Assembly: GCA_902812465.1 (NCBI GenBank)
Contig: CADDZE010000026.1
Location: 1 to 54,196, forward strand
DNA from: Acidobacteriota bacterium
GTDB lineage: Bacteria > Acidobacteriota > Terriglobia > UBA7540
DNA: 54,196 nt
Direction of reading: 5' to 3'
Shown: positions 257-47,191 of the stretch, piece by piece
How the letters are laid out: every line of letters starts with the position of its first letter
Numbering within the stretch: position 1 is the stretch's first letter
Program-made: the position numbers and the translations under genes
The notes under the pieces: model-generated
What the model saw: only the letters and a program-made list of their open reading frames with translations
Databases searched by the model: none
What the model was told of the DNA's origin: nothing

Positions 257-299
257 GCCTTCCTCACGCCCGGCTCCGTCCCCAACCGGCTTTTCCGCC

Positions 300-328
300 A
301 GTATACACCAGCGGCGTTGCTCGTGTAA
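300..328 (-). promoter_or_regulatory. Probable sigma-70 promoter of the HtrA gene
   Basis: On the minus strand there is a TATACT -10 box (300-305) with TTACAC (323-328) 17 nt upstream. This predicts a leader of about 37 nt before the ATG at 256. The FHA activator gene also has a TATACT box, followed by a similar leader (CGGTTGG then GGACGGA in both), which supports this one as functional. Confidence 0.5.
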
Positions 329-424
329 GCGCCATTGGGCGCCGGGCAGGATTTGTTCCGAGTGCTCGCAACTGCCAAGTTTGAGCGTCCGTTACCGAAC
401 CGCTTTGGGGATGTCGGCTTCGAG

Positions 425-459
425 TTTTCAACAACATATCCGGTTCGTTTTTGTCAAAT
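425..459 (-). promoter_or_regulatory. Conserved upstream element, copy A (htrA side)
   Basis: On the minus strand, 450 down to 425 is 26 nt identical to 10271-10296. The core reads GAACCGGATATGTTGTTG, and both copies are preceded by ATTTGAC. Both copies point toward the downstream gene and lie about 120-130 bp upstream of a TATACT -10 box. It could be an activator or repressor operator, or an ECF-sigma promoter with a GAACC -35 and TCGA 18 nt downstream. The ECF reading is inference; HtrA genes are classic envelope-stress sigma targets. Confidence 0.55.
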
Positions 460-796
460 CAATTGCTCCGCACCAAGCCGAGGCGGTTTCCTGGCGGACG
501 CCTTGAGGAGGCGGGTCGCGAAGTTATACAAAAAATACAACCGAGTGCCGGGAAGGCGCGCGCTCCCAGCCGGCGGGTTGTTTACATTGAAAACTAAAAT
601 TTTCTGGGAGGGTGGGCAGGGCGTGGCTTGACTCGCTCCCCGCCCCGGCGTAGGGTTGCTTAACAGTGGAGGCCACGGAGGGCCCGCCGGGCATCCCGGC
701 TCGCGGCAGGTATTCGCGGGCGCTTCAACACGGCGATGCGGTACTGTGCCTCTGCACTTCAAAACCGGGTTGCGCCGCACCCGTTCGAAAGCCAAC

Positions 797-3010
797 ATGG
801 CTGAGCGACGACACCGAAATTTGCTGCTGGTCGTGCTCTCGATCCTGGTTCCCGCTCTGTTTTTGCTGGGCTGGAGCCAGGCGTCGCTGAACCTTTCTTT
901 CATTCGTCCCCGTACTGCGGCGGAGACGATCCTGCTGCTGGCTCTCTCCATCCTGATTTTCGTGGCGTTTGTCATCTTTGCCCTGGTCTTGCTGCGCATT
1001 CTGCTGAAGCTTTATGTGGAGCGGCGGCAACAGCAGCTAGGCTCGCGCTTCAAGACGAAGATGGTAGTGGCCTTCCTCAGCCTGTCGCTACTACCTGTCT
1101 GCTTCCTTTTTGCTTTTGCTTACGGCTTGCTGAACCGCAGCATCGACCGCTGGTTTGGCATCCCCTTCGAGACCGTCCGCAAGAACGCTGATGCCATGCT
1201 CGAGCAACTGGCTTCGCAGGCGCAGCAACGCACCCTCGATGACGCCGAACACCTGGCGTCGAACCTGGCCATCCAGGTGGCTATGGAAAGGCTCGATGCG
1301 ACCAAGCTGGGTACGCTGCTGGCGCGCGAGGTGGCGGAACGCCATCTCTATGCCGCTCTCTGCCTCACCGGAGAGGGACGCCTCCTGGCGCGTGCGGGCG
1401 GCGCCACCCCGCCGCCGGAGGAGTTGCAGCAGCACTTTCCCGCCCCGCTCGCTTCCAGCAAGGCATGGGTGCAGGCCCTTAAGGCTCCCTGGTCTCGTAC
1501 CGGCTCGGAGCTCTTCGTGGCAGCCGAGAAGGTCGGGGACGCCGGAACCCTTCTCGTGATGCGGCAGCTTCCGCCACGCATCGAGCAGATTGCCGAACAG
1601 ATCCGGGAGCAGGCGCGCACTTATGATGAGTTAAACCGGGAGCGCAAGGCGGTTAAGCGAATCTACCTTTCCGTCCTCGGACTGCTGACGGTGCTGATCC
1701 TTTTCGCCGTCACCTGGTTTGCCATGTTCGTTTCCAAGCAAGTTACCGTTCCGGTGCAAGCGCTGGCTCAGGCCACGCACGAGGTCACTCAAGGGAACCT
1801 GGGTTTTCAGATTGCGGCGCGTTCGGACGACGAGCTGGGCAGCCTGATTCGCCTCTTCAACCACATGACGGCGCAGCTCCAGGAGAGCCGCCAGGCTCTC
1901 GAGAAGGCGGCCGCCGAGCTGCAACAGGCGAACCGCCAGCTGGAGGAGCGAAGCAACACGATGGAGGCGATCCTCGAGCACATCCCGACGGGAGTCATTT
2001 CTTTCGATCCAGCGGGAAGGATTGTGCGGATGAACTCGACCGTGTGGCGCCTGCTGGGACGCCCTAAGAGCAGCGAACCCCCGAAGAGCCTGGCGGAACT
2101 GTTTCCGCCCGAGGACGCGCGGGAAATTGTCCGGCTTTTCCGGCAGGCGTCGCGGCAAGGAGTGGTGACGCGCCAGCTCCAGATGACGCTCGGGACGCGG
2201 CGGGCCACCGTCGGCCTGACGCTTTCTTCCATTCGCGCCCAGCACGGCGCTGTCGGTTCGGTTTTGGTCATCGAAGACCTTACAGAACTCTTGCGTGCGC
2301 AGCGCGCTGCGGCGTGGCAGGAGGTGGCGCAGCGCATCGCCCACGAGATCAAGAACCCCCTCACGCCTATTCAGCTCTCGGCCGAACGTATTCGCCGGCT
2401 GATGGACCGCGAAGTCGGCTCACCGGCAGACGTGACGGCCACCATCCAGGAGAGTGCCAGCCTGATCGGGCGCGAGGTGGCGACGCTCAAGACACTGGTT
2501 GACGAATTCTCGGACTTCGCTCGCTTCCCGGCGTCGCAGCCGGTGCCTTCCGACCTGAACGCCATCGTCGCCAGCGCGCTGAGCGTCTTCGAGGGCCGCC
2601 TGGACGGCATCCAGGTGCACCGCCGCCTGGCGCCGAACCTGCCCACGCTGCGCGCCGACCCCGAGCAGCTAAAGCGCGCGCTGGTGAACTTGATTGACAA
2701 TGCGGCCGAGGCGCTGGAACACGCGCCCGTCAAGGAGATCTGGGTGAGTACGCGCGCCGACCCCGACCGCGACGTCGCCGAAATCAGTATTGCTGACAGC
2801 GGCCCCGGTATTCCCCCTGAAGCCAGGGAACGGCTCTTCCTTCCCTTCTTCTCGACGAAGCGGCGCGGCACCGGTCTAGGGCTGGCGATTGTCAGCCGCA
2901 TCGTCTCCGAGCATCACGGCGGCATCCGCGTCGAGGAGAATCAGCCCAGCGGGACGCGTTTCGTCATCGAGCTGCCCTGCGAGCGGGCAGCCGCTCTGGC
3001 AGAGGCCTGA
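797..3010 (+). CDS. NtrY-like membrane sensor histidine kinase (HAMP-PAS-HisKA-HATPase)
   Basis: About 737 aa. The N-terminus has hydrophobic segments near residues 8-28, 45-75 and 95-120. A roughly 180-residue extracytoplasmic region and a further membrane helix near 320-345 follow. Then come a HAMP linker, a coiled coil, a PAS domain (starting ILEHIPTGVISFDPAGRI), the phospho-acceptor box QRIAHEIKNPLTPIQLSAER and a HATPase with DSGPGIP and GTGLGLAIV. This order is that of the NtrY family, which autophosphorylates and passes phosphate to an NtrX-type activator. No ntrX is adjacent; the nearest sigma-54 activator is at 10467. The open frame extends to 656, but those 47 residues look non-coding, so ATG 797 is preferred. 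Neighbours: TPR gene 4 bp downstream. Confidence 0.88.
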   Translation: MAERRHRNLLLVVLSILVPALFLLGWSQASLNLSFIRPRTAAETILLLALSILIFVAFVIFALVLLRILLKLYVERRQQQLGSRFKTKMVVAFLSLSLLPVCFLFAFAYGLLNRSIDRWFGIPFETVRKNADAMLEQLASQAQQRTLDDAEHLASNLAIQVAMERLDATKLGTLLAREVAERHLYAALCLTGEGRLLARAGGATPPPEELQQHFPAPLASSKAWVQALKAPWSRTGSELFVAAEKVGDAGTLLVMRQLPPRIEQIAEQIREQARTYDELNRERKAVKRIYLSVLGLLTVLILFAVTWFAMFVSKQVTVPVQALAQATHEVTQGNLGFQIAARSDDELGSLIRLFNHMTAQLQESRQALEKAAAELQQANRQLEERSNTMEAILEHIPTGVISFDPAGRIVRMNSTVWRLLGRPKSSEPPKSLAELFPPEDAREIVRLFRQASRQGVVTRQLQMTLGTRRATVGLTLSSIRAQHGAVGSVLVIEDLTELLRAQRAAAWQEVAQRIAHEIKNPLTPIQLSAERIRRLMDREVGSPADVTATIQESASLIGREVATLKTLVDEFSDFARFPASQPVPSDLNAIVASALSVFEGRLDGIQVHRRLAPNLPTLRADPEQLKRALVNLIDNAAEALEHAPVKEIWVSTRADPDRDVAEISIADSGPGIPPEARERLFLPFFSTKRRGTGLGLAIVSRIVSEHHGGIRVEENQPSGTRFVIELPCERAAALAEA

Positions 3011-3014
3011 CGCG

Positions 3015-4955
3015 ATGCTTTGCCTCACCGCGCTGCTCTTCGCTTCCTTCTTTGCCCTGGCTCCTTCCCAAGGTCAACTCGATGGCTTGCAAAGCGAGCT
3101 GCGGTCGGCGGTAGCCGCCGAACAAGCAGGTCAATACGAGAAGGCTGCCGCCCTTTACCAGCGTATTGCAGAGCAGGCGGACGGGGAGCTCCAGGTGCAA
3201 GCACGAACGCGCCTTGCCACGGACTATTTTCTGCTGCACCGTTACACGGATTCCCTGCAGGCGGTGGAGCCGCTGACCCAGGGCGCGGCAGTGCCTTCGC
3301 GGCTTCCTGCGCAGGCATGGCTGGTGGAGGGCTTGGACTACCTTGAGCTAGACCACCCTGCCCGGGCGCTGGCTCCGCTGCGCCAGGCCCTCGCGGTGAA
3401 CCCAGACAGCGGCACCGCGCGCCTGGCCCTCGGTGATGCTTTGGCGCGAACCCACCGGTTCGAGGAGGCTCTCTCCCAGTACCAGGAACAGACTCGCCGA
3501 ACTCCCCAACTGCCTGATGCCTGGTACAAGCTCGGCCTCACTTACCAGCAACTCGCGGCAGAGACGGTAAAGGAGGTTGCCAAGAAGTTCCCGGCGAGCA
3601 CTGTGGCCGAGCAGCTCGCGGCGGAAGAGGCATTGGCCAACGAGGATTACCTGGCGGCAGCGAAATCTTGCTATCGTCTCGTGCGACGCGCCCCCCAGCA
3701 GCCCCAGGTGCACGCCGACTTGGGGTTCGCCCTGCTCAACCTGGGATTCCCCAAGGTTGCCGAGGAGCAGTTTCGCGCCGAGCTGTCCCAGGACCCGTAC
3801 TGTCCCCTCGCCTTGCTGGGCCGGGCGGTGACGGAATCCCTGCGCGGCGACCAGGGCGGAGCGATGGCGAGTGTGAAGCAGCTGATCGACGCCAACCCTC
3901 ACGAAGCATCACGCCTGCTGGCTTCGCCGCCGCCCGTCGCGCTGCGCCAGGCCTGGGCCAGCGGCAAGGTTCGCGTTCCCCAGCCACTCGCGACGTCCCC
4001 AGCGGCCCGGCTCTGGGTGGCCTGGCTGAGGGATTCGGGCACAACCTTCACCCCGCCCGCAGCGCTGCCAGCACCCTGCGTTAACCTCCCGTCCCATGCT
4101 CTGGAGGCGCCCGGTGTGTGGCTGCCCGAGGCTTGCTACCTGAGCCTGCGGCAGCGGCTTGGCCGGAAGAAGCGCTTGAGCCCGACAGAGCGCTTGAAGC
4201 TGGCCGAAACCGAGCTGCGGCTGGTCAACTACCAGCAGGCGCGCCACGCTGCTCAACTTGCGCTCGCCAGCGACCCCAGTAGCGACTGGGCCATGTTTTG
4301 GCTCCACCAGGCGAATGAGAGGCTGGCCGACGACATGTTTCTGAAGGTGGCTTCTCTGAACCCCGAGTCTCCTCGCGTGCACGAAATGTTGGCTCGATAC
4401 TATGCCCACGAGCACGACGTGCCCCGCGCCAAGGCGGAGTACTCCGCTGCCATACGTGCCGCACCTGACCTGCCCGACCTGCACCTTGGCTTGGGAACCC
4501 TCTACTGGGGGAGCGGCGAGTGGGAGGAAGCCGAGAAGGAGCTTCAGCGGACCCTTGAGCTCATGCCGGGCTCCGTCCGCGCGCGCTTCGAGCTGGGTGA
4601 CGCGTACGTCCAGCAGGGCCGCTGGCAGGAGGCCATCCGCCAGCTGCAACAGGTGCGGGATGACCCGGGTGTCGGCCTGAAGGCGCGGCTCGATTTGGCG
4701 AAAGCGGAGGAGGAGATGGGCCAATTACGGCAGGCGATCGAGGTCCTGGCGCCGGCGGCCAGCCAGGATACCAGCGGGGAAGTGCACTATCGCCTCGCGG
4801 CCTTGTACCGCAAGCTGGGTGACAAGGCTCACGCGGAGCGAGCGCTAGCGACGTTCAAGAAGCTGCGCGATGCTTCCCTGGCCGCGAGCCGCCAGGAGGC
4901 CGAGTCTCTCGATAAGGAAACGGCAGAGCAGCGTGCCCTGCCGTCAGTACAATGA
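3015..4955 (+). CDS. Secreted tetratricopeptide-repeat protein
   Basis: About 646 aa. The ATG at 3015 gives a short hydrophobic leader (MLCLTALLFASFFALAPSQG), an obvious signal peptide. The frame could start at 2889, but that part overlaps the kinase gene. Repeated helical pairs follow: residues about 35-260 and 400-620 carry TPR signatures such as ALAVNPDSGTARLALGDAL and TLELMPGSVRARFELGDAY. A less repetitive Pro-rich region with several Cys separates the two blocks. TPR arrays mediate protein-protein contacts, so this is probably a periplasmic scaffold. Its stop overlaps the next start (ATGA), which indicates translational coupling to the FG-GAP protein. The specific partner is unknown. Confidence 0.8.
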   Translation: MLCLTALLFASFFALAPSQGQLDGLQSELRSAVAAEQAGQYEKAAALYQRIAEQADGELQVQARTRLATDYFLLHRYTDSLQAVEPLTQGAAVPSRLPAQAWLVEGLDYLELDHPARALAPLRQALAVNPDSGTARLALGDALARTHRFEEALSQYQEQTRRTPQLPDAWYKLGLTYQQLAAETVKEVAKKFPASTVAEQLAAEEALANEDYLAAAKSCYRLVRRAPQQPQVHADLGFALLNLGFPKVAEEQFRAELSQDPYCPLALLGRAVTESLRGDQGGAMASVKQLIDANPHEASRLLASPPPVALRQAWASGKVRVPQPLATSPAARLWVAWLRDSGTTFTPPAALPAPCVNLPSHALEAPGVWLPEACYLSLRQRLGRKKRLSPTERLKLAETELRLVNYQQARHAAQLALASDPSSDWAMFWLHQANERLADDMFLKVASLNPESPRVHEMLARYYAHEHDVPRAKAEYSAAIRAAPDLPDLHLGLGTLYWGSGEWEEAEKELQRTLELMPGSVRARFELGDAYVQQGRWQEAIRQLQQVRDDPGVGLKARLDLAKAEEEMGQLRQAIEVLAPAASQDTSGEVHYRLAALYRKLGDKAHAERALATFKKLRDASLAASRQEAESLDKETAEQRALPSVQ

Positions 4956-6637
4956 ATCGGCGCCAATTCCTCCTGCCGTCAAGCCTCTGCTTCCTGGTGC
5001 CGCTCTTCCGCGGCGGACGTCGGGGTCAGCCGGTGCTTGCGCCGGGACCCTGGTACGCGGACGTCGCACGCCGCGCCGGGCTTACTGCCTTCCGGGATAC
5101 CTGCGGCTCGCTCGCCAAAGACTACCTGGTGGAAACAGTGGGCAGTGGGGTCGCCATCTTCGATTACAACCGGGACGGCCTGATGGACATTCTGCTGGTG
5201 AACGGCTCCTCGTTCGAAATCCTGGCGGATCCCTCCCTGCCGCGGCCCTCCAGCCGGCTGTTTCGCAACAACGGCGACGGCACCTTCACGGACGTTACCC
5301 GGGCGAGCGGGCTGATCAACGACGGCTGGGGCATGGGCGTCGCGGCCGCGGACTACGACGGCGACGGCTACACCGATGTTTTCATCACCAACTTCGGCAC
5401 CAACGCGCTCTTCCACAACAACGGCGATGGGACGTTCACCAACGCGACGCGCCAGGCGGGCCTGCAGGGCGGTAACTGGAGCACTGGCTGCGCCTGGGGC
5501 GACTACGACGGCGACGGGCGGCTGGACCTCTACGTGGCGCGCTACGTCGACTTCGATCGCGCGCGCATCCCGCGCCCGGGCGCTAACGGTTATTGCCAGT
5601 ACCACGCCGTCCCGGTGGCTTGCGGACCCCAGGGCTTACCGGGCCTCGCTGACCTTCTCTACCACAACGAGGGGCAGGGAAGGTTTCGCGAGGTCAGCGC
5701 CGACGCGCGCGTGCGGGACACCGACCAGGCCTATGGGTTTTCGGTGGTTTGGTCCGATTTCGACAACGACGGGCGCCTGGACGCCTTCGTGGCCAACGAT
5801 TCCACCCCCAACTTCCTCTGGCACAACCAGGGCAACGGGACCTTCGAAGAAATCGCCTTCGAGGCTGGGTGCGCGGTGAGCGGAGACGGCCGCGCCCAGT
5901 CCTCCATGGGCATTGCCCTCGGCGATTACAACAACGATGGCTGGATGGACCTGCTGGTAACCAATTTTTCCGAAGACTACAGCACCCTCTACCGCAACCG
6001 CCACGGCCAGTTCGACGATGTGACCTACGAGGCGGGCCTGGGCACGGTGAGTTATAAGCAGCTGAAATGGGGCACCGGCTTCATCGACTTTGACCACGAC
6101 GGCTGGCTGGACCTCTTCGTCGCCAACGGGCACATCTATCCCCAGGCCGATCGCGCCGGCAACACCTACCGCCAGACTAACCAGCTCTTCCGCAACCTGC
6201 GCAACGGGCGCTTCGAATTGCTCCCAGCGGCGGAGAGCGGATTCAGCGAGGCGCGCAGCAGCCGTGGCGCCGCCTGGGGCGATCTCAACAACGACGGCCT
6301 GCTGGAAATTGTGGTGAATAACATTGACGAGGTGCCGTTTCTCTACCGTTCAGCGAGACAACCCTCGGGAAACTGGATTCGCTTCAAACTCGCCGGCGCA
6401 GGCCGAAACCCGGATGCGATCGGTGCCCGCGTTCGTGTGACGGCCGGCAGCGTCATTCAGACCGGCGAAGTGCGCAGCGGCGAGAGCTACCTCTCCTGCT
6501 GTGAGGCGCGCCTCCACTTTGGATTGGGAAAAGCGGCGGGTGCCGACCGCGTCGAAATCCGCTGGCCGGACGGCCGCCTCGAGGTGCACCAGCACCTGGC
6601 GGCGAACCGCGAGTACGTGCTCCGCGAAGCCCGCTGA
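4952..6637 (+). CDS. FG-GAP repeat / ASPIC-UnbV (CRTAC1-like) exported protein
   Basis: 561 aa. The N-terminus MNRRQFLLPSS has a Tat-like RRxFL followed by a hydrophobic stretch, so export is likely. Residues about 50-440 contain at least seven FG-GAP/VCBS-type calcium-loop repeats (DYDGDGYTDVF, DFDNDGRLDAF, DYNNDGWMDLL), expected to form a beta-propeller. Residues about 470-555 form the ASPIC/UnbV domain (GARVRVTAGS, then ARLHFGLGKA and VEIRWPDGR). The family is widespread in Acidobacteriota and planctomycetes, but its biochemical role is not established. It is translationally coupled to the TPR gene and faces a second family member transcribed toward it. Confidence 0.85.
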   Translation: MNRRQFLLPSSLCFLVPLFRGGRRGQPVLAPGPWYADVARRAGLTAFRDTCGSLAKDYLVETVGSGVAIFDYNRDGLMDILLVNGSSFEILADPSLPRPSSRLFRNNGDGTFTDVTRASGLINDGWGMGVAAADYDGDGYTDVFITNFGTNALFHNNGDGTFTNATRQAGLQGGNWSTGCAWGDYDGDGRLDLYVARYVDFDRARIPRPGANGYCQYHAVPVACGPQGLPGLADLLYHNEGQGRFREVSADARVRDTDQAYGFSVVWSDFDNDGRLDAFVANDSTPNFLWHNQGNGTFEEIAFEAGCAVSGDGRAQSSMGIALGDYNNDGWMDLLVTNFSEDYSTLYRNRHGQFDDVTYEAGLGTVSYKQLKWGTGFIDFDHDGWLDLFVANGHIYPQADRAGNTYRQTNQLFRNLRNGRFELLPAAESGFSEARSSRGAAWGDLNNDGLLEIVVNNIDEVPFLYRSARQPSGNWIRFKLAGAGRNPDAIGARVRVTAGSVIQTGEVRSGESYLSCCEARLHFGLGKAAGADRVEIRWPDGRLEVHQHLAANREYVLREAR

Positions 6638-6656
6638 CCGGCCCCCTGCGGCCGAA

Positions 6657-6674
6657 GGCGGTACCAGCACCGCC
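6657..6674. terminator. Small inverted repeat between convergent FG-GAP genes
   Basis: GGCGGT-ACCAGC-ACCGCC is a perfect 6-bp stem with a 6-nt loop, lying in the 62-bp gap between convergent stop codons. There is no T-run on either side, so intrinsic termination is only a possibility. Confidence 0.25.
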
Positions 6675-6699
6675 GTTACAGGGATGCTGCCAGGCGAAC

Positions 6700-8499
6700 T
6701 TAGCTCTTGCCGGCCATGCGAGGGAACTTGCCGGGGACGATGCCCGCGCCTTCCTTCACAGTCAGGATCTGGTCGATAGGTACGTTGGTGAGATGATCCA
6801 CCGCGCCGCTGGGCCAGCGGATTTCGAGCGAATCGATTTTGGTTTGCGAGCCGAGGCCGAAGTGGAGGCGCGGATCACTGGCGGACATGTAGCCCATGCC
6901 GCCCTTCGCCTGGGTCACCTGGATCTGCCCCCCGGCCGTCAGCTTGAGCGCGGAGCCGACGCCATCCCGATTTGACTTGGTGCCCACCAGGAACACTTCC
7001 AGCCAGTGGTTGGCGTTGCCGCCGTCGTTGCGCAGGAGCTCGGGCGGGCCGCCGCGAACATTGATGGCCAGGTCGAGGTCGCCGTCGTTGTCAAAATCGG
7101 CCACCGCCAGGCCGCGTCCGGCAATCGGGTGCATGAAGTCCGGGCCGAGGTGCTCGGAAACCTTCTCGAACTTGCCGTGGCCGAGATTCCGGAACATCAG
7201 CTTGGGCTCTTCGTAGGTCACCTCCGTGTGGTAGAGCTGGATGTTATCGAGCATGGCCCCATTCACCTGGCAGATGTCGGTCCAGCCGTCATTGTCATAA
7301 TCCATAAATTTCATGGTGACGCCGCTGAGGAAGATCGCCTTGTTGCCGAGGCCGGAGGAATAGGTGGCGTCATCGAAGGTGCCGTCGTGGTTGTTGTGGT
7401 AGAGGCGGTTGAGCTCGAAGTCGAGGTGGGTCACATAGAGGTCCAGCCAGCCATCGCCGTCGACGTCGGCAGCGTCGATCCCCATACCCGCCTCGTATTT
7501 CCCGTCCTCGCTGGCCGCGATGCCGGAAATGAAAGAGACGTCCTTGAACGTGCCGTCGTGGTTGTTCAGGAAAAGGAAGTTGGGCCAAGTGTCGTTGGCA
7601 ATGGCGATGTCCGGCCAGCCATCATTGTTGAAGTCAGCCAGCACAACGCCCATTCCCTTAGCTTCCGGCTTGCCCACCCCGCTCTTATCGCTGACGTCGG
7701 TGAAGGTGCCATCGTGGTTGTTGTGGTAGAGCTTGATGTGCTGGCCTTTGTAGTTGTCGGGGTGGCAGTAAGCGCGGTAGCCCGGCTTGTGCTCGCCACA
7801 CCAGATGTTGTTGGCAGGGCTCCACTCGATGTAGTTGCACACGACGAGGTCTAAGTAGCCGTCCTTGTCGTAATCGAACCAGCCGGCGCTGGTGCCCCAA
7901 TTTCCCTGGTTGGCTACACCGGCCTTTTCAGTCACGTCGGTGAAGGTGCCGTCGCCGTTGTTGTGGTAAAGGATAGAGCGGCCGTAGCCGGTGACGTAGA
8001 GGTCGGGGTAGCCGTCATTGTCGAAGTCGCCCACGGCAACGCCTTGGCCGTAGAGCCCTTCGGCCCCCACGCCAGCCTTAGCGGTGACGTCGGTAAAGGT
8101 GCCGTCGCCATTGTTGTGATAAAGCGCGGAGTGCAAGGGATGGGGCGGCTTGTAGATGTCGGTGGCGGCCGACTGCACGAAGTAGAGGTCGTAGAGGCCA
8201 TCGCGGTCGTAGTCAATCCAGCCCACGCCGGTGCCCATGGTTTCCAGGTAGTACTTCTGGTCCGTGGCGGTGGCGTCCTGCTGGAAGGTGATGCCGGAGC
8301 CGCGCAGCACGTTGGTAAAGCGCACGGGAATGCCCGCTGGAAGGGCACGCAGCAGCCGCGGCGGGCGAAGCATCAGCCACAGCAGAGACGCCGCGAGGAG
8401 GAGCCACAACCCCTGGATAAGCCGGCGGTGAAGAGCGCGGCAGAACGCCCGGGCGCCAAGAGAGCGCGCTCCGGTGAGCGAGGATGGTGCTGGGTTCAC
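6700..8499 (-). CDS. Second FG-GAP / ASPIC-UnbV (CRTAC1-like) protein, membrane-anchored
   Basis: About 599 aa from GTG 8499. A hydrophobic segment near residues 28-45 (IQGLWLLLAASLLWLML) suggests an N-terminal anchor or signal. Residues about 80-480 hold repeated metal-loop motifs (DYDRDGLYDLYF, DFDNDGYPDLYV, DVDGDGWLDLYV). Most are paired with LYHNNGDGTFTDVT-type strands, giving a beta-propeller. The C-terminus is an UnbV domain (DPRLHFGLG, LEIRWPSGAVD). The frame remains open to a TTG at 8517, but a good promoter -10 lies at 8507-8512, so transcripts should begin near 8500 and GTG 8499 would be leaderless or nearly so. Function is unknown; probably a surface or periplasmic binding protein. 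Confidence 0.83.
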   Translation of the reverse strand: MNPAPSSLTGARSLGARAFCRALHRRLIQGLWLLLAASLLWLMLRPPRLLRALPAGIPVRFTNVLRGSGITFQQDATATDQKYYLETMGTGVGWIDYDRDGLYDLYFVQSAATDIYKPPHPLHSALYHNNGDGTFTDVTAKAGVGAEGLYGQGVAVGDFDNDGYPDLYVTGYGRSILYHNNGDGTFTDVTEKAGVANQGNWGTSAGWFDYDKDGYLDLVVCNYIEWSPANNIWCGEHKPGYRAYCHPDNYKGQHIKLYHNNHDGTFTDVSDKSGVGKPEAKGMGVVLADFNNDGWPDIAIANDTWPNFLFLNNHDGTFKDVSFISGIAASEDGKYEAGMGIDAADVDGDGWLDLYVTHLDFELNRLYHNNHDGTFDDATYSSGLGNKAIFLSGVTMKFMDYDNDGWTDICQVNGAMLDNIQLYHTEVTYEEPKLMFRNLGHGKFEKVSEHLGPDFMHPIAGRGLAVADFDNDGDLDLAINVRGGPPELLRNDGGNANHWLEVFLVGTKSNRDGVGSALKLTAGGQIQVTQAKGGMGYMSASDPRLHFGLGSQTKIDSLEIRWPSGAVDHLTNVPIDQILTVKEGAGIVPGKFPRMAGKS

Positions 8500-8506
8500 G
8501 GAATCC

Positions 8507-8534
8507 ACTATAGCCAACCGCGAGCGGGTTTCAA
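8507..8534 (-). promoter_or_regulatory. Sigma-70 promoter for the second FG-GAP gene
   Basis: On the minus strand, TTGAAA (8529-8534), a 16-nt spacer and TATAGT (8507-8512) match the -35/-10 consensus at 5/6 and 5/6 positions. Predicted transcription start is about 8500, at the GTG start codon. Confidence 0.5.
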
Positions 8535-8552
8535 ACCTGCCCTCAAGCTGCC

Positions 8553-9986
8553 TTAACTGGCTCCGCGGCCCGTCAACACGACGGGGATGGTCTTCAACAG
8601 GATCTTCCAGTCGAGGGCCGGCGACCAGTGATCGATATACTGAAGGTCCAATTCCATCCAGCGGCGGAAGCTGAGGGTGCTGCGGCCCTCGAGCGCCCAG
8701 AGACAGGTCAAGCCGGGCTGCATACGTAGGCGGCGGCGCTGCCAGGGCTCGTAGCGTTCTACTTCCTCGGGCAGCGGCGGCCGGGGTCCCACGAAGGACA
8801 TATCGCCCTTGAGAATGTTGAAGAGTTGCGGCAACTCGTCCAGGCTGAACTTACGCATGAAACGGCCCACGCCCGTGCAGCGTGGATCGTTCTTAATCTT
8901 GAACACCGGCCCGTCGAGCTCGTTGAGGGCTGCCAGCTCCTCGCGCAGCAGATCGGCGTCAGCGTGCATCGAGCGGAACTTATAGACCGTAAAACGGCGC
9001 CCGCCCAACCCGCATCGCGTCTGGCGGTAGAGCACAGGCCCTGCGGATGTCAGCTTGATGAGGAGGGCAAGCAGGAGCATCAGGGGGGCAAAAAGGACCA
9101 GTAGCACCAGGGCCATGATGAAGTCCACCAGACGCTTGAGCAGTAGCAGGTATTCATTTTCCGGTGTGGTCGAGAAGGTGAGCAGCGGCATTCCCTGAAG
9201 CCGGTCGAGCGACACCTTGGAAAAGGTGTGCGGGAAGAAGCTGAGCAGCAAGCGTGTGCGGACGCCTTCCTCCTCGCAGACGAGGAAGGCGGGCTTGAGA
9301 AAGTCGAGCTCCGGCTTACCCACGGCGAAGACAACCTCATCGATGACCCGGCGGTGGAGCAAGTCCCGCAGTTGGTCCAACAAATAGATGGGATAACGCC
9401 CCTCGAGGCCGCCGAGCATCCGCGCTTGCGCTTCCGGCAGGTCTTCGGCTCGCGGCACCGCCAGTCCGGCGAGCTTCATGCCGTGCCGCTCATGGGCTTC
9501 AATCGTCCGGGCGATTTCCATGGCCTCCGCCGTAGTCCCCACGACCAGGAAATGCCGCATGCCGGCGAAGGCGCGCCGTAGACGGCTGCCGAGCGGACGG
9601 ACGGCCAGCCGGAACAGGATCATTCCCAGCAGGTCGAAGAGCGCGTAAAGGCCCAGTAGCGCGCGGCTGACGTATCCGACCTTGAGGGCGAAGGTGAAGG
9701 CGAACAAGAGCGTGGTGGCGATGACGAATACCTTGGCGGGGTCGGCCAAGGCCCGGCGCAGGTCATCTTCCTCGACATCGCGATAGATGCCGGCAGCCAG
9801 CCCAACCGCAATCCAGATCCCCAGGGCCAGCGGCACAATCCAGAGGTAGTAAACGGCCGGGTAGAGCGGGCGCAGGAAGGGAAGGCGGGCGCGGACGGCG
9901 TGGGCGAGCGCGAAGCTGGCCAGCGCCAGGATCGCGTCCATCAGCAGGTAAAAAACACCCATCATCCGGCGGTGATGCAGAAACAT
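8553..9986 (-). CDS. Exopolysaccharide-type polyprenyl-phosphate sugar-1-phosphate transferase
   Basis: 477 aa. Residues about 10-130 hold four or five hydrophobic helices. About 135-270 is a Rossmann-like CoA-binding-type region (HFLVVGTTAEAMEIARTIEA). A further membrane helix near 290-315 (KRLVDFIMALVLLVLFAPLM) precedes the catalytic bacterial sugar transferase domain with YRQTRCGLGGRRFTVYKFRSM, KFSLDELPQLFNILKGDMS and VGPRPPLP. This is the WcaJ/WbaP/EpsL-type architecture. Such enzymes transfer a sugar-1-phosphate to undecaprenyl phosphate at the inner membrane as the first step of EPS or O-antigen assembly. No glycosyltransferase cluster surrounds it, so it stands as an orphan priming enzyme. 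Sugar specificity cannot be read from the sequence. Confidence 0.9.
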   Translation of the reverse strand: MFLHHRRMMGVFYLLMDAILALASFALAHAVRARLPFLRPLYPAVYYLWIVPLALGIWIAVGLAAGIYRDVEEDDLRRALADPAKVFVIATTLLFAFTFALKVGYVSRALLGLYALFDLLGMILFRLAVRPLGSRLRRAFAGMRHFLVVGTTAEAMEIARTIEAHERHGMKLAGLAVPRAEDLPEAQARMLGGLEGRYPIYLLDQLRDLLHRRVIDEVVFAVGKPELDFLKPAFLVCEEEGVRTRLLLSFFPHTFSKVSLDRLQGMPLLTFSTTPENEYLLLLKRLVDFIMALVLLVLFAPLMLLLALLIKLTSAGPVLYRQTRCGLGGRRFTVYKFRSMHADADLLREELAALNELDGPVFKIKNDPRCTGVGRFMRKFSLDELPQLFNILKGDMSFVGPRPPLPEEVERYEPWQRRRLRMQPGLTCLWALEGRSTLSFRRWMELDLQYIDHWSPALDWKILLKTIPVVLTGRGAS

Positions 9987-10262
9987 ACGGACCCAGTCGT
10001 CATCTTAGCAGAAGGCGCTGGCAAAGCTGACGGCCCGCCAGCAGGGCACTTCAACTGCCGAGGGCCTGTCGTACGGTGTCCCAGGCGAGGCCCTGCGGCT
10101 GCTCAAGCCTGGAGACGAAGTGTGGGATGTAAACAACGTAAAGGATTAAGCTTTCCGCACCCCTTGTCGGCTTGTAAGGTCTCGCGCAGAGGCATGGATT
10201 GGCGTACAGGCTATCAACCTGGGCGGCAGGAGATCGCCCCGGTTGGCGCGCAGCAAATGTTA

Positions 10263-10296
10263 ATTTGACGAAACGAACCGGATATGTTGTTGAAAA
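10263..10296 (+). promoter_or_regulatory. Conserved upstream element, copy B (FHA activator side)
   Basis: ATTTGAC followed by a 26-nt block (10271-10296) identical to the minus strand at 450-425. The downstream 40 nt remain partly alike (CGGTTCGG then CGCTCA in both copies). It lies about 132 bp before the -10 box at 10428, a spacing close to that of the htrA copy. Confidence 0.55.
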
Positions 10297-10404
10297 ATCG
10301 AGGGGGCGTTCTAAACCGGTTCGGCGGCGAGCGCTCAGCGCAGTTCAGCGGGTTGCCAGGGAACCGGGCGCATGGCCGCGGAGGTGTGAAGCGGCGCCGA
10401 GTTA

Positions 10405-10433
10405 TTGTCGCGGGGCGCGCCGTGCCCTATACT
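10405..10433 (+). promoter_or_regulatory. Probable sigma-70 promoter of the FHA activator gene
   Basis: TTGTCG (10405-10410), a 17-nt spacer and TATACT (10428-10433). The predicted leader is about 26 nt to ATG 10467. Confidence 0.5.
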
Positions 10434-10466
10434 GACAAAACGGTTGGCAAGGACGGAAGCAAACCG

Positions 10467-12392
10467 ATGACCCCTCGGCTCACCGCGTTATCCGGCCCGC
10501 TGAAGGGCAGCGTCTTCCCGCTTACCCCGGGCGAGATATCGATCGGAAGGCACACCTCCAACCAGATTTGCGTCGGGGACTTGCGCGTCTCACGCCGGCA
10601 CTGCCTGCTGCGTTGCAACCGCGACCGGTTCACCTTGGTCGATCTTGAAAGCCGCAACGGCTCGTTCGTGAACGGCGTTCCGGTGAAGGAGCGGGAGCTC
10701 GAGGAAGGAGACCGTATCGAGATCGGCGACTCGGTGTTTCTGTTCCTCTGCCAGGAGCCTGAGGACCGGCCAGCGCCTACGCCCGTTCGCCTGGAGGAGG
10801 GAGGCCTGCCCAGCACGACCACCGTGAGGCTGCGTCGCGAAGATGCCGTCTACGCCCTGGCCACCGAAGCTGGCACCGCCGCCCGCAGCGCCCGCAAAGC
10901 TCGTGACCTGGATGCCCTGTTGCGGATCAGCCTGAGCATTAATTCCATTCGCGAGCTCGAGCCGCTCCAGCACCGCCTGCTGGACCTGATCTTCGAGGTC
11001 ATTCCCGCCCAGCGGGGCGCCATCCTGCTCACCGGCTCCGGCGCAGAGGATTTTGTTTCCGTCTTCGGGCGCGAGCGCAGCTCGGCCTCTTCGCGTCCGC
11101 TGCACGTCAGCCGCACCGTCATCCGCCAAGTGCTGCAGGAGCGCGCCGGGATTTTGAGCAACGACGTGCTGCAGGGTCAGGACTTCAGCCCCGCGCAGAG
11201 CTTGGTGGCGTCGCAGGTCTCCTCGTTGCTGGCGGCTCCGCTGATGCTCTTCGAGCGGGTGATCGGCGCCATTTACCTCGATACCAGCAACCCCGCGGTG
11301 CGCTTCGACGAGGATCACCTCCAGCTTCTGACCGGAATTGCCGGCATCGCCGCCATCGCCCTGGATAACGCTCGGCAGATCGAGCGGCTGGAGAGCGAGA
11401 ACGAGCGCCTGCAGAGTGAGATCCAGATCGAACATAACCTTGTGGGCGAAAGTGCGGCCATGCGCGAGGTGCTGCAATTTATCGCCAAAGTCGCCCCGCA
11501 CGATTCGACGGTGCTGATCTGCGGCGAGAGCGGTACCGGCAAGGAACTGGTGGCACGGGCCCTGCACGCCAATAGCCCGCGCGCTCCGAAGCCTTTCGTG
11601 GCCATCAACTGCGCCGCGTTGCCCGATAGCCTGCTGGAGAGTGAGCTTTTCGGTCACGAGCGCGGCGCCTTCACTGGGGCCGTCTCCCAGAAGAAAGGGA
11701 AGCTCGAGGTGGCCAATGAGGGGACAGTGTTTCTGGACGAAATTGGCGAGCTGGCTCCGCTGCTGCAGGCCAAAATGCTGCGTGTGCTGCAGGAGCGAGA
11801 GTTTGAGCGCGTGGGCGGCACGCATCCGCTGAAGCTGGACGTGCGGCTGATTGCCGCCACTAACCGGAATCTTGAGGAAGCGATCCGCAACGGCACCTTT
11901 CGTCAGGACCTCTACTTCCGCCTGAACGTGGTCTCCATCACGATCCCTCCCCTGCGCGAGCGCCGGGGAGACATTCCCCTGCTGGCCACCCACTTCGCCG
12001 CCAAACATAGCCGGTTGTGCAAGCGGCGTCCCATGGGACTATCACCAGAAGCGCGCGAGTGCCTGATGCGCTACGACTGGCCGGGAAACGTGCGTGAACT
12101 CGAAAACGTCATTGAGCGCGCTGTGGTGATGAGCTCGGGGGGCGTTATCCGTCCCGAGGACCTGCCGGAAGAGGTGGTGGAATCAGCGCGTGCCACGGGT
12201 GCTCCTTCTACGCGCTATCACGAAGCCATCCAGCAGGAGAAGAAGCGGCTGATCCTCCAAGCGTTTGGGCAAGCGGCCGGGAATTACACCGAAGCGGCTA
12301 AGCTGCTCGGTGTTCACCCCAACTACCTGCATCGACTGATTCGGAATCTCAATCTTAAGGGCGAGCTGAGGCGGCCGGCCGCAGGGCGGTAA
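10467..12392 (+). CDS. Sigma-54-dependent transcriptional activator with FHA and GAF sensory domains
   Basis: 641 aa. Residues about 5-95 form an FHA phosphothreonine-binding domain ([33 protein letters not shown]). About 150-310 is a GAF domain. About 330-560 is the AAA+ domain with Walker A GESGTGKE, the sigma-54-contacting GAFTGA loop ([12 protein letters not shown]), Walker [10 protein letters not shown] and an arginine-finger region. The C-terminus is a Fis-type helix-turn-helix ([18 protein letters not shown]). The regulator should remodel sigma-54 RNA polymerase at -24/-12 promoters. The FHA input suggests control by Ser/Thr phosphorylation, though no kinase gene is nearby. ATG 10467 is chosen because the FHA domain starts there and the promoter lies upstream of it. 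Confidence 0.9.
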
Positions 12393-45616: not shown

Positions 45617-46291
45617 ATGGGTTCGACAACGCTGACACCACCGAAGACCAAGCCTCCCCGCGGCACCCGTTTGGGCAAGCCAGGGCGCAGCGGTGATGGC
45701 TTCGGCTGGGGCGATGGCCACGGCTTCAGCGGTGGGCCCGGCGGTGGATGGAGCGTTCCGGCACGCGCCTACCGCACCGGCATGTGGCTGGCGCTGGGCG
45801 CTATCGTTATGCTCTTTGCGGCCTTCACCAGCGCCCTGGTGGTGCGCCGGGGGATATCGAACGACTGGGTTCCGACAGCTCTGCCGCGCATCCTCTACCT
45901 CAATACAGTGATTTTGGCGGCCAGCAGTCTCACTCTCGAGCTGGGACGCCGCGCTCTTACCGCGGACCTTGCCACCCAGTTCTCGCGCTGGCTGTACGCC
46001 ACGGCTGGGCTTGGCATCGCTTTCGTCGCCGGGCAGTTGACCGCCTGGCACCAGCTAGCGGCGCGCGGTGTCTACTTGGCCACCAACCCCAGCAGCTCGT
46101 TCTTTTATCTGCTGACCGCTGCCCACGGCGTCCACTTGCTGGGCGGGATCGCAGCCTTGGCGTACCTGTGCTGGCGTGTCGCGGGATTCAACAGCTCTCG
46201 AAGGACGGCCGTCGATGTCACGGCTATTTACTGGCACTTCATGACAGGACTGTGGGTTTACATCCTGGTGCTGTTAACGGCGAGATTCTGA
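45617..46291 (+). CDS. coxC: Haem-copper oxidase subunit III family protein
   Basis: 224 aa. A 50-residue Gly/Pro-rich soluble N-terminus precedes five hydrophobic helices. ERRALTADLATQFSRWLY-like loops, FFYLLTAAHGVHLLGGIAAL and IYWHFMTGLWVYILVLLTAR (Glu/His-containing helices) match the subunit III fold. It stabilises subunit I and its proton uptake. It sits 37 bp after coxA. A second member follows at 46550. Confidence 0.88.
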   Translation: MGSTTLTPPKTKPPRGTRLGKPGRSGDGFGWGDGHGFSGGPGGGWSVPARAYRTGMWLALGAIVMLFAAFTSALVVRRGISNDWVPTALPRILYLNTVILAASSLTLELGRRALTADLATQFSRWLYATAGLGIAFVAGQLTAWHQLAARGVYLATNPSSSFFYLLTAAHGVHLLGGIAALAYLCWRVAGFNSSRRTAVDVTAIYWHFMTGLWVYILVLLTARF

Positions 46292-46549
46292 CGATGGATA
46301 CAATCCATACGTTCTGCACAAAGCGAACAGAGTTTCCAGGTCAGGACAGCCCAGGCGCGGCGGTGCCCCAATCAAAAATTGAAGGAACGAAGCCACCAAA
46401 TGATTGAAAACACGAGAGGGCGTTCCGCGAGTGCTCGCCAACCCGGCCGCTGGTTCCGGATTCTCGGCCGTGCCGTCAAGGAAGCACACCGGTGCACGGA
46501 GACGCTTGTCTACAAAGTCGACGTTTCATTTGGGGAGGGCTAAGCGCCG

Positions 46550-47191
46550 ATGGCCAGCCATGAGGCGGTCACTCTAGGGTTGCATGAAACCGAGTCGATG
46601 TGGGCAGGAGGACGCTCGCCCTTCGCCGTCGGCTCGAAGAAGCTGGGCATGTGGCTGTTCATCGTCTCGGACGCCATCACCTTTTCCGCCCTGCTCATCG
46701 CTTACAGCTTCGTGCGCGTGGCCAGCCCGAGCTGGCCGCGGCCGTTTGAGTCCGCGAGCATCGCCAATGCCACAGTGATGACGCTGATCTTGCTCACCAG
46801 CAGCATCACGGTGGTCATGGCCGTGCGCCAGGCAAAGCTGGGTAACCGAAGTGCCGTAGCGGGATGGTTGGCGGCAACCATGCTCGGCGGCATCCTGTTT
46901 GATGTATTGCACCTCCGTGAGTGGGTGGGCCTGATCGAGGAAGGTGTCCGCCTGTTCAAGAATCCCTGGGGCACGCCTCAGTTCGGGGCGGCGTTTTTCA
47001 CCCTGACGGGACTGCACATGACGCACGTTACGGTGGGTGTCGTCTACCTGGGGGTCATTGCCATCGGCACAAAGCGCGGCAAATACACCGCCGAGGATGT
47101 GGAGGTCAGCGGGCTCTATTGGCACTTCGTCGACCTGGTATGGATGTTTATCTTCCCGCTGGTCTACCTGATGTCAGCGAAGTTTGCGTGA
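46550..47191 (+). CDS. Second haem-copper oxidase subunit III family protein
   Basis: 213 aa, five helices. KKLGMWLFIVSDAITFSALL opens the domain. FFTLTGLHMTHVTVGVVYLG and GLYWHFVDLVWMFIFPLVYL are conserved subunit III helices. It differs clearly from the 45617 protein. Some oxidases carry two subunit III-like chains, or one may be used by a different complex. A 258-bp gap without a gene separates them. Confidence 0.88.
   Translation: MASHEAVTLGLHETESMWAGGRSPFAVGSKKLGMWLFIVSDAITFSALLIAYSFVRVASPSWPRPFESASIANATVMTLILLTSSITVVMAVRQAKLGNRSAVAGWLAATMLGGILFDVLHLREWVGLIEEGVRLFKNPWGTPQFGAAFFTLTGLHMTHVTVGVVYLGVIAIGTKRGKYTAEDVEVSGLYWHFVDLVWMFIFPLVYLMSAKFA

Follow-up and report, generated by a model that had tools for sequence, protein, structure and literature searches.

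Two copies of one element in the window

The window analysed here is 54,196 bp long and is an entire contig (C26) of a draft acidobacterial genome of 3.92 Mb in 190 contigs, which is 98.6% complete. At its left end, positions 2 to 256 on the minus strand encode an HtrA/DegP-like N-terminus (MNRQRYLATLAV...SFAAIAEKVGPAVVNINTES), which is truncated by the contig end and was named by eye from its motif; a profile search with this 85-residue fragment gave no match. On the plus strand, positions 10467 to 12392 encode an activator with FHA (9.1e-20), GAF (1.3e-11) and sigma-54-interaction (AAA+, Sigma54_activat, 4.3e-73) domains. Between them, at 4952-6637 and 6700-8508, lie two adjacent genes with FG-GAP-like internal repeats, visible in the DNA as long repeats in both direct and inverted orientation.

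An identical 26-mer, AAACGAACCGGATATGTTGTTGAAAA, is found upstream of both genes, at 450-425 on the minus strand and 10271-10296 on the plus strand, as the initial annotation had claimed. It had also judged the match to be beyond chance, and a search of the window with 3 mismatches indeed returned these two sites alone, whereas 100 shuffled sequences gave none. Both copies are part of a directional element that lies upstream of its gene and points at it. The core upstream of htrA extends from 414 to 458 on the minus strand (profile match 410-469, E 2.4e-13), with TTTGAC at 458-453, an invariant block to 425 and a weaker CGAGG/CCG tail to about 414. The core upstream of the activator extends from 10264 to 10307 on the plus strand (profile match 10251-10308, E 9.4e-18), with TTTGAC at 10264-10269, the invariant block to 10296 and a weaker tail to about 10307.

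Other resemblances described at the outset held in part. ATTTGAC precedes both copies but not at the same spacing, as the minus copy is one base longer (ATTTGACAA vs ATTTGACG); this additional base, after TTTGAC, also sets the htrA core apart from the family in the ungapped alignment of 67 copies. CGGTTCGG and CGCTCA are present in both window copies but are not a family-wide trait, the downstream regions of the family being no more alike than shuffled sequence. TATACT (305-300 and 10428-10433), CGGTTGG and GGACGGA were likewise found at both genes, their spacing varying between the copies by anything from a few bp to 12 bp.

Copy number and core sequence

The genome contains 66 copies of the core at no more than 3 mismatches, 21 of them exact, and the reversed control gave none. 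When 67 copies were turned into a sequence-only profile, it matched the genome 79 times with E < 2e-6. No convincing copy was detected in the plasmid and viral collections searched, all named genomes that carry the element family are acidobacterial, and no description of the element was found in the literature searched. The element is real, directional and unreported in that literature.

In the ungapped alignment of the 67 copies, the consensus TTTGACnAAACGAACCGGATAnGTnnTTGAAAA is nearly invariant from -10 to +22, that is over 33 bp, and is followed by a weaker tail reaching +33 and preceded by a weakly A-rich stretch between -20 and -14. As read from the sequence, the order of parts is a direct-repeat array, the 33-bp core, a predicted sigma70-type promoter and the gene.

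Genomic context and downstream genes

Genes were called with a purpose-written codon-usage caller run around the retrieved copies only. Nearly all of the 67 analysed cores are intergenic. Two overlap gene calls: the plus copy of the window, whose gene truly starts with the ATG at 10467 but was over-extended by the caller, and the copy at locus L056, which lies inside a doubtful antisense call. Of the 64 scorable copies, 61 have a next downstream gene that reads away from the core (binomial 2e-15), and the direction of the upstream gene is random (30 vs 31 among overlap-free copies). The genome scan that had been proposed to recognise a dispersed repeat therefore did reveal many copies, but not the random orientation of such a repeat, since the copies are intergenic and oriented.

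The predicted targets were tallied from the downstream genes; for three copies no such gene could be called, and the domain scan covered all but three of the encoded proteins. They include SpoT, UvrC, MutS, ThiC, EPSP synthase (aroA), trigger factor (tig), succinyl-CoA ligase, a RecN/SMC-like ATPase, starch synthase, PhoH, an S41 protease, an ECF sigma factor, response regulators, a histidine kinase, many TPR proteins and outer-membrane proteins. This set is diverse, often housekeeping, and is not an envelope-stress list. As about 79 promoters carry the element, upstream of such diverse genes, a link specific to htrA and the FHA activator is unsupported; that both genes share a regulator, as the initial annotation had suggested, is still the best reading, with a DNA-binding factor in that role.

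The same annotation had offered a shared ECF-type envelope-stress promoter, GAACC-N18-TCGA. The protease gene htrA is a classic envelope-stress target, and GAACC does occupy the same position in 63 of the 67 copies. The reading fails nevertheless, because GAACC is separated from TCGA by a 'spacer' that is no less invariant than GAACC itself, no more than 27 of the 67 copies have TCGA and a predicted sigma70-type promoter lies 120-160 bp further downstream; the breadth of the target set argues in the same direction. We regard an ECF promoter as scarcely credible.

The region between core and gene

Predicted sigma70-type promoters lie downstream of both window cores, TTACAC-17-TATACT for htrA (300-328, minus strand), with its -10 box at +142 from the core, and TTGTCG-17-TATACT for the activator (10405-10433, plus strand), with its -10 box at +154. 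Across the family, 22 boxes resembling a -10 element were counted at +120 to +159 against 4.9 expected (p ~1e-8), and none on the reverse strand of the same interval. The best sigma70-type promoter, positioned downstream of the core, scored above the shuffled 95% level in 26 of the 67 copies.

Apart from these boxes, the promoter regions are unrelated. The mean pairwise local alignment score of the flank from +36 to +160 was 16.0, compared to 15.7 for shuffled sequence, which leaves no residual homology. For the flank from -150 to -22 it was 17.0 compared to 15.4, the excess corresponding to a new motif. A duplicated promoter, which the initial annotation had considered, or a mobile one is therefore not supported, as the sequence beyond the core cannot be aligned across the promoter region; judged by these alignments, the element is a discrete site.

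The element could alternatively be part of a transcribed leader that works as RNA, either riboswitch-like or as an attenuator. Its position is always 5' of genes, and inverted repeats of the type CGAACCGG...CCGGTTCGG occur in both window copies, yet RNAalifold, run over -30 to +130 on 40 copies, gave 0 consensus pairs, an Rfam search returned tRNAs only and left the element unmatched, and the best promoter comes after the core, not before it. An RNA leader is accordingly very improbable.

Direct repeats upstream of the core

The new motif upstream of the core is a direct-repeat array with a 9-bp period and a consensus of about GTAnRCATY, made up of 3-9 units and usually located between -165 and -45. 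It was first noticed as TGTAAACAACGTG, a sequence with 14 sites in the genome, 11 of which lie at most 200 bp upstream of a core. GT pairs at lags of 9, 18 and 27 within the region from -190 to -45 numbered 231, 176 and 112, compared to shuffled means of 52, 50 and 46 (maxima 74, 65 and 67), an excess that is absent downstream and far upstream of the cores. A block of at least three repeat units was found in 56 of the 67 copies, and a good array is missing in about one fifth of them. In the window, the plus copy has its array at 10120-10146 on the plus strand (GTGTGGGAT GTAAACAAC GTAAAGGAT). The htrA copy is among those missing a good one: its weak array at 521-586 on the minus strand (TGTAAACAAC at 586-577, GTATTTTTT GTATAACTT at 538-521) is called poor because it falls below the array score applied elsewhere. 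No fixed 9-bp register exists between array and core, and weak hints of a helical register at 10-11 bp were lost after multiple testing.

Since these copies had also served to train the array profile, the fair tests of the array are the lag counts and four copies that stood outside the training. These are the good copies of the relative G014, all four of which (L116 and L168-L170) have an array, with scores of 14.9-26.2. They lie together on one 100-kb contig (C5) of that genome, whose spoT and FHA activator genes are without the element; this contig may be misbinned or an island. Chance matches to the core in other phyla, namely in Algoriphagus, in a Firmicute and in a record of Omnitrophica, had no array.

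An array beside an asymmetric 33-bp core resembles the arm sites of excisionases next to a core site, and together with the approximately 80 dispersed copies this might point to a recombination or nucleoid-organisation site, either att-like with Xis-type arm repeats or bound by a chromosome-organising protein. We hold such a site to be improbable, as the copies are oriented by the gene and not by the chromosome, and as their distance to the -10 box is restricted.

Conservation and related families

For each of spoT, thiC and tig, orthologues from 27-29 other genomes were examined, and for the FHA activator seven homologues from six genomes belonging to the family; none of them has the element upstream. 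The conservation upstream of orthologues that the initial annotation would have predicted was thus not observed for any of these four genes in other genera of the family, and the placement of the element is lineage-specific. An ancestral regulon of the family was considered and rejected, the orthologues of the four target genes being without the element. In the genome of the window (G000), the upstream neighbour of spoT, thiC and tig (L193, L223 and L253) differs from that of every relative, an observation that concerns these three genes only. Because placement is not conserved at orthologues, we infer selection on regulation from the form of the element alone.

Two further families of sequences in the same genome have the right half of the core in common with it, and both face genes where inspected. 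Family B consists of tandem GAATCCCATTATGTTGTTGAAAATAAAGG, and family C (CGAAGCCACCAAGTTATTGAAAA) has dozens of matches. At seven loci (L153, L154, L156, L157, L159, L160 and L162), family B precedes genes, among them one judged by eye to be guaB-like, as a tandem block of about 190 bp in which two to three units of GAATCCCATTATGTTGTTGAAAATAAA are about 61 bp apart. At L154 (1455-1499, plus strand) and L156 (1379-1423, plus strand), 9-bp arrays follow downstream of the family B units but on the other strand, so that the array may be an independent module. A family C unit, GAAGCCACCAAATGATTGAAAA, lies within the window at 46389-46410 on the plus strand and precedes a gene at 46550 that resembles cytochrome-oxidase subunit III. 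Just upstream of that unit, on the opposite strand, the window has its strongest 9-bp GT array (46284-46328, minus strand; GTTCGCTTT GTGCAGAAC GTATGGATT GTATCCATC GTCAGAATC). Genomes of genus g10 contain 15-69 matches of a tandem variant with a spacing of about 66 bp; a 9-bp array was not found in these elements, with no long GT runs at the G009 loci and none at the L119 copies.

These data bear on the possibility that the element is a repeat that propagates itself, as a mobile promoter, a MITE or a REP-like sequence, and whose survivors are only those upstream of and facing genes, any regulation being a by-product. The high copy number with 21 exact cores, the lineage-specific placement, the similarity of the family B tandem block at several loci of one genome and the longer tandem blocks of genus g10 are all compatible with propagation. 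Such a repeat would, however, be expected to leave alignable flanks, yet the core and a variable array are all that the copies have in common; terminal inverted repeats are absent from the aligned region, the fixed sequence is only 33-45 bp long and the orientation is nearly absolute. We therefore consider propagation unlikely, although it deserves to be taken seriously.

Proposed function

The explanation that we favour, with a probability of roughly 0.6, is a lineage-specific cis-regulatory DNA element, in which a core operator and a 9-bp filament track act on sigma70 promoters at about 80 sites. The core would be bound by a sequence-specific protein, and the 9-bp repeats would be coated by a small DNA-binding protein that oligomerises head to tail, like BldC or Xis. 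Both proteins would assemble into a nucleoprotein complex, from which the sigma70 promoter, about 130-150 bp further downstream, would be activated or tuned. Four HTH_17 proteins of the genome exceed the Pfam cut-off; one, on contig C154, adjoins an apparent integrase (by eye), and a small stand-alone one is encoded at C2:93367, neither of them being tied to the element.

More tentatively, and at somewhat less than even odds, the element may represent a new two-module control system of Acidobacteriota, in which a 33-bp operator and a 9-bp polymerisation track place a filament 130-300 bp upstream of about 80 sigma70 promoters, and in which sibling operator families (GAATCCCATT... and CGAAGCCACC...) sharing the GTTRTTGAAAA half are perhaps read by paralogous factors. 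Global regulation in this abundant soil phylum is largely uncharted, and a long invariant operator present at about 80 promoters, usually behind a 9-bp track, constitutes a defined bait for the regulator. Given its sibling families and its absence at orthologues, the element would exemplify a control network rewired inside one bacterial family.

Comparison with known systems

The element shares with the REPIN/REP and MITE families its high copy number, intergenic location and lineage specificity, but has neither a palindrome nor terminal inverted repeats (by eye and by RNAalifold), and its orientation to the gene is almost fixed. Under the term promoter propagation in prokaryotes, putative mobile promoters have reportedly been recognised as similar promoter-region sequences before non-homologous genes of one genome. 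The element likewise precedes non-homologous genes, but its copies share the core and the loose array alone, the remaining promoter region being unrelated. The Xis filaments on arm sites by phage att cores also combine head-to-tail direct repeats with an adjacent asymmetric core; in contrast to these, the element exists in about 80 promoter-facing copies, and no integrase was noted beside them in the flanks examined.

A further close parallel is found in the Streptomyces operators of BldC, a small MerR-like wHTH protein; there, each protomer occupies 9 bp and the protomers follow one another head to tail over sites that vary in length, with a repeat consensus of AATTxxxx(C) (PMC5859096). Both have 9-bp direct repeats that are directional, variable in number and upstream of the promoters of many genes, and by analogy each repeat of the element may also accommodate one protomer. 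The element differs by its repeat, GTAnRCATY instead of AATTxxxx(C), and by the separate invariant 33-bp core that follows the array. A search for a BldC orthologue gave a weak match to the BldC model only (23 bits, cut-off 77), in an integrase-linked excisionase-like protein. Because the repeat sequence differs, we propose that the element works like a BldC operator and do not class it as a member of that group.
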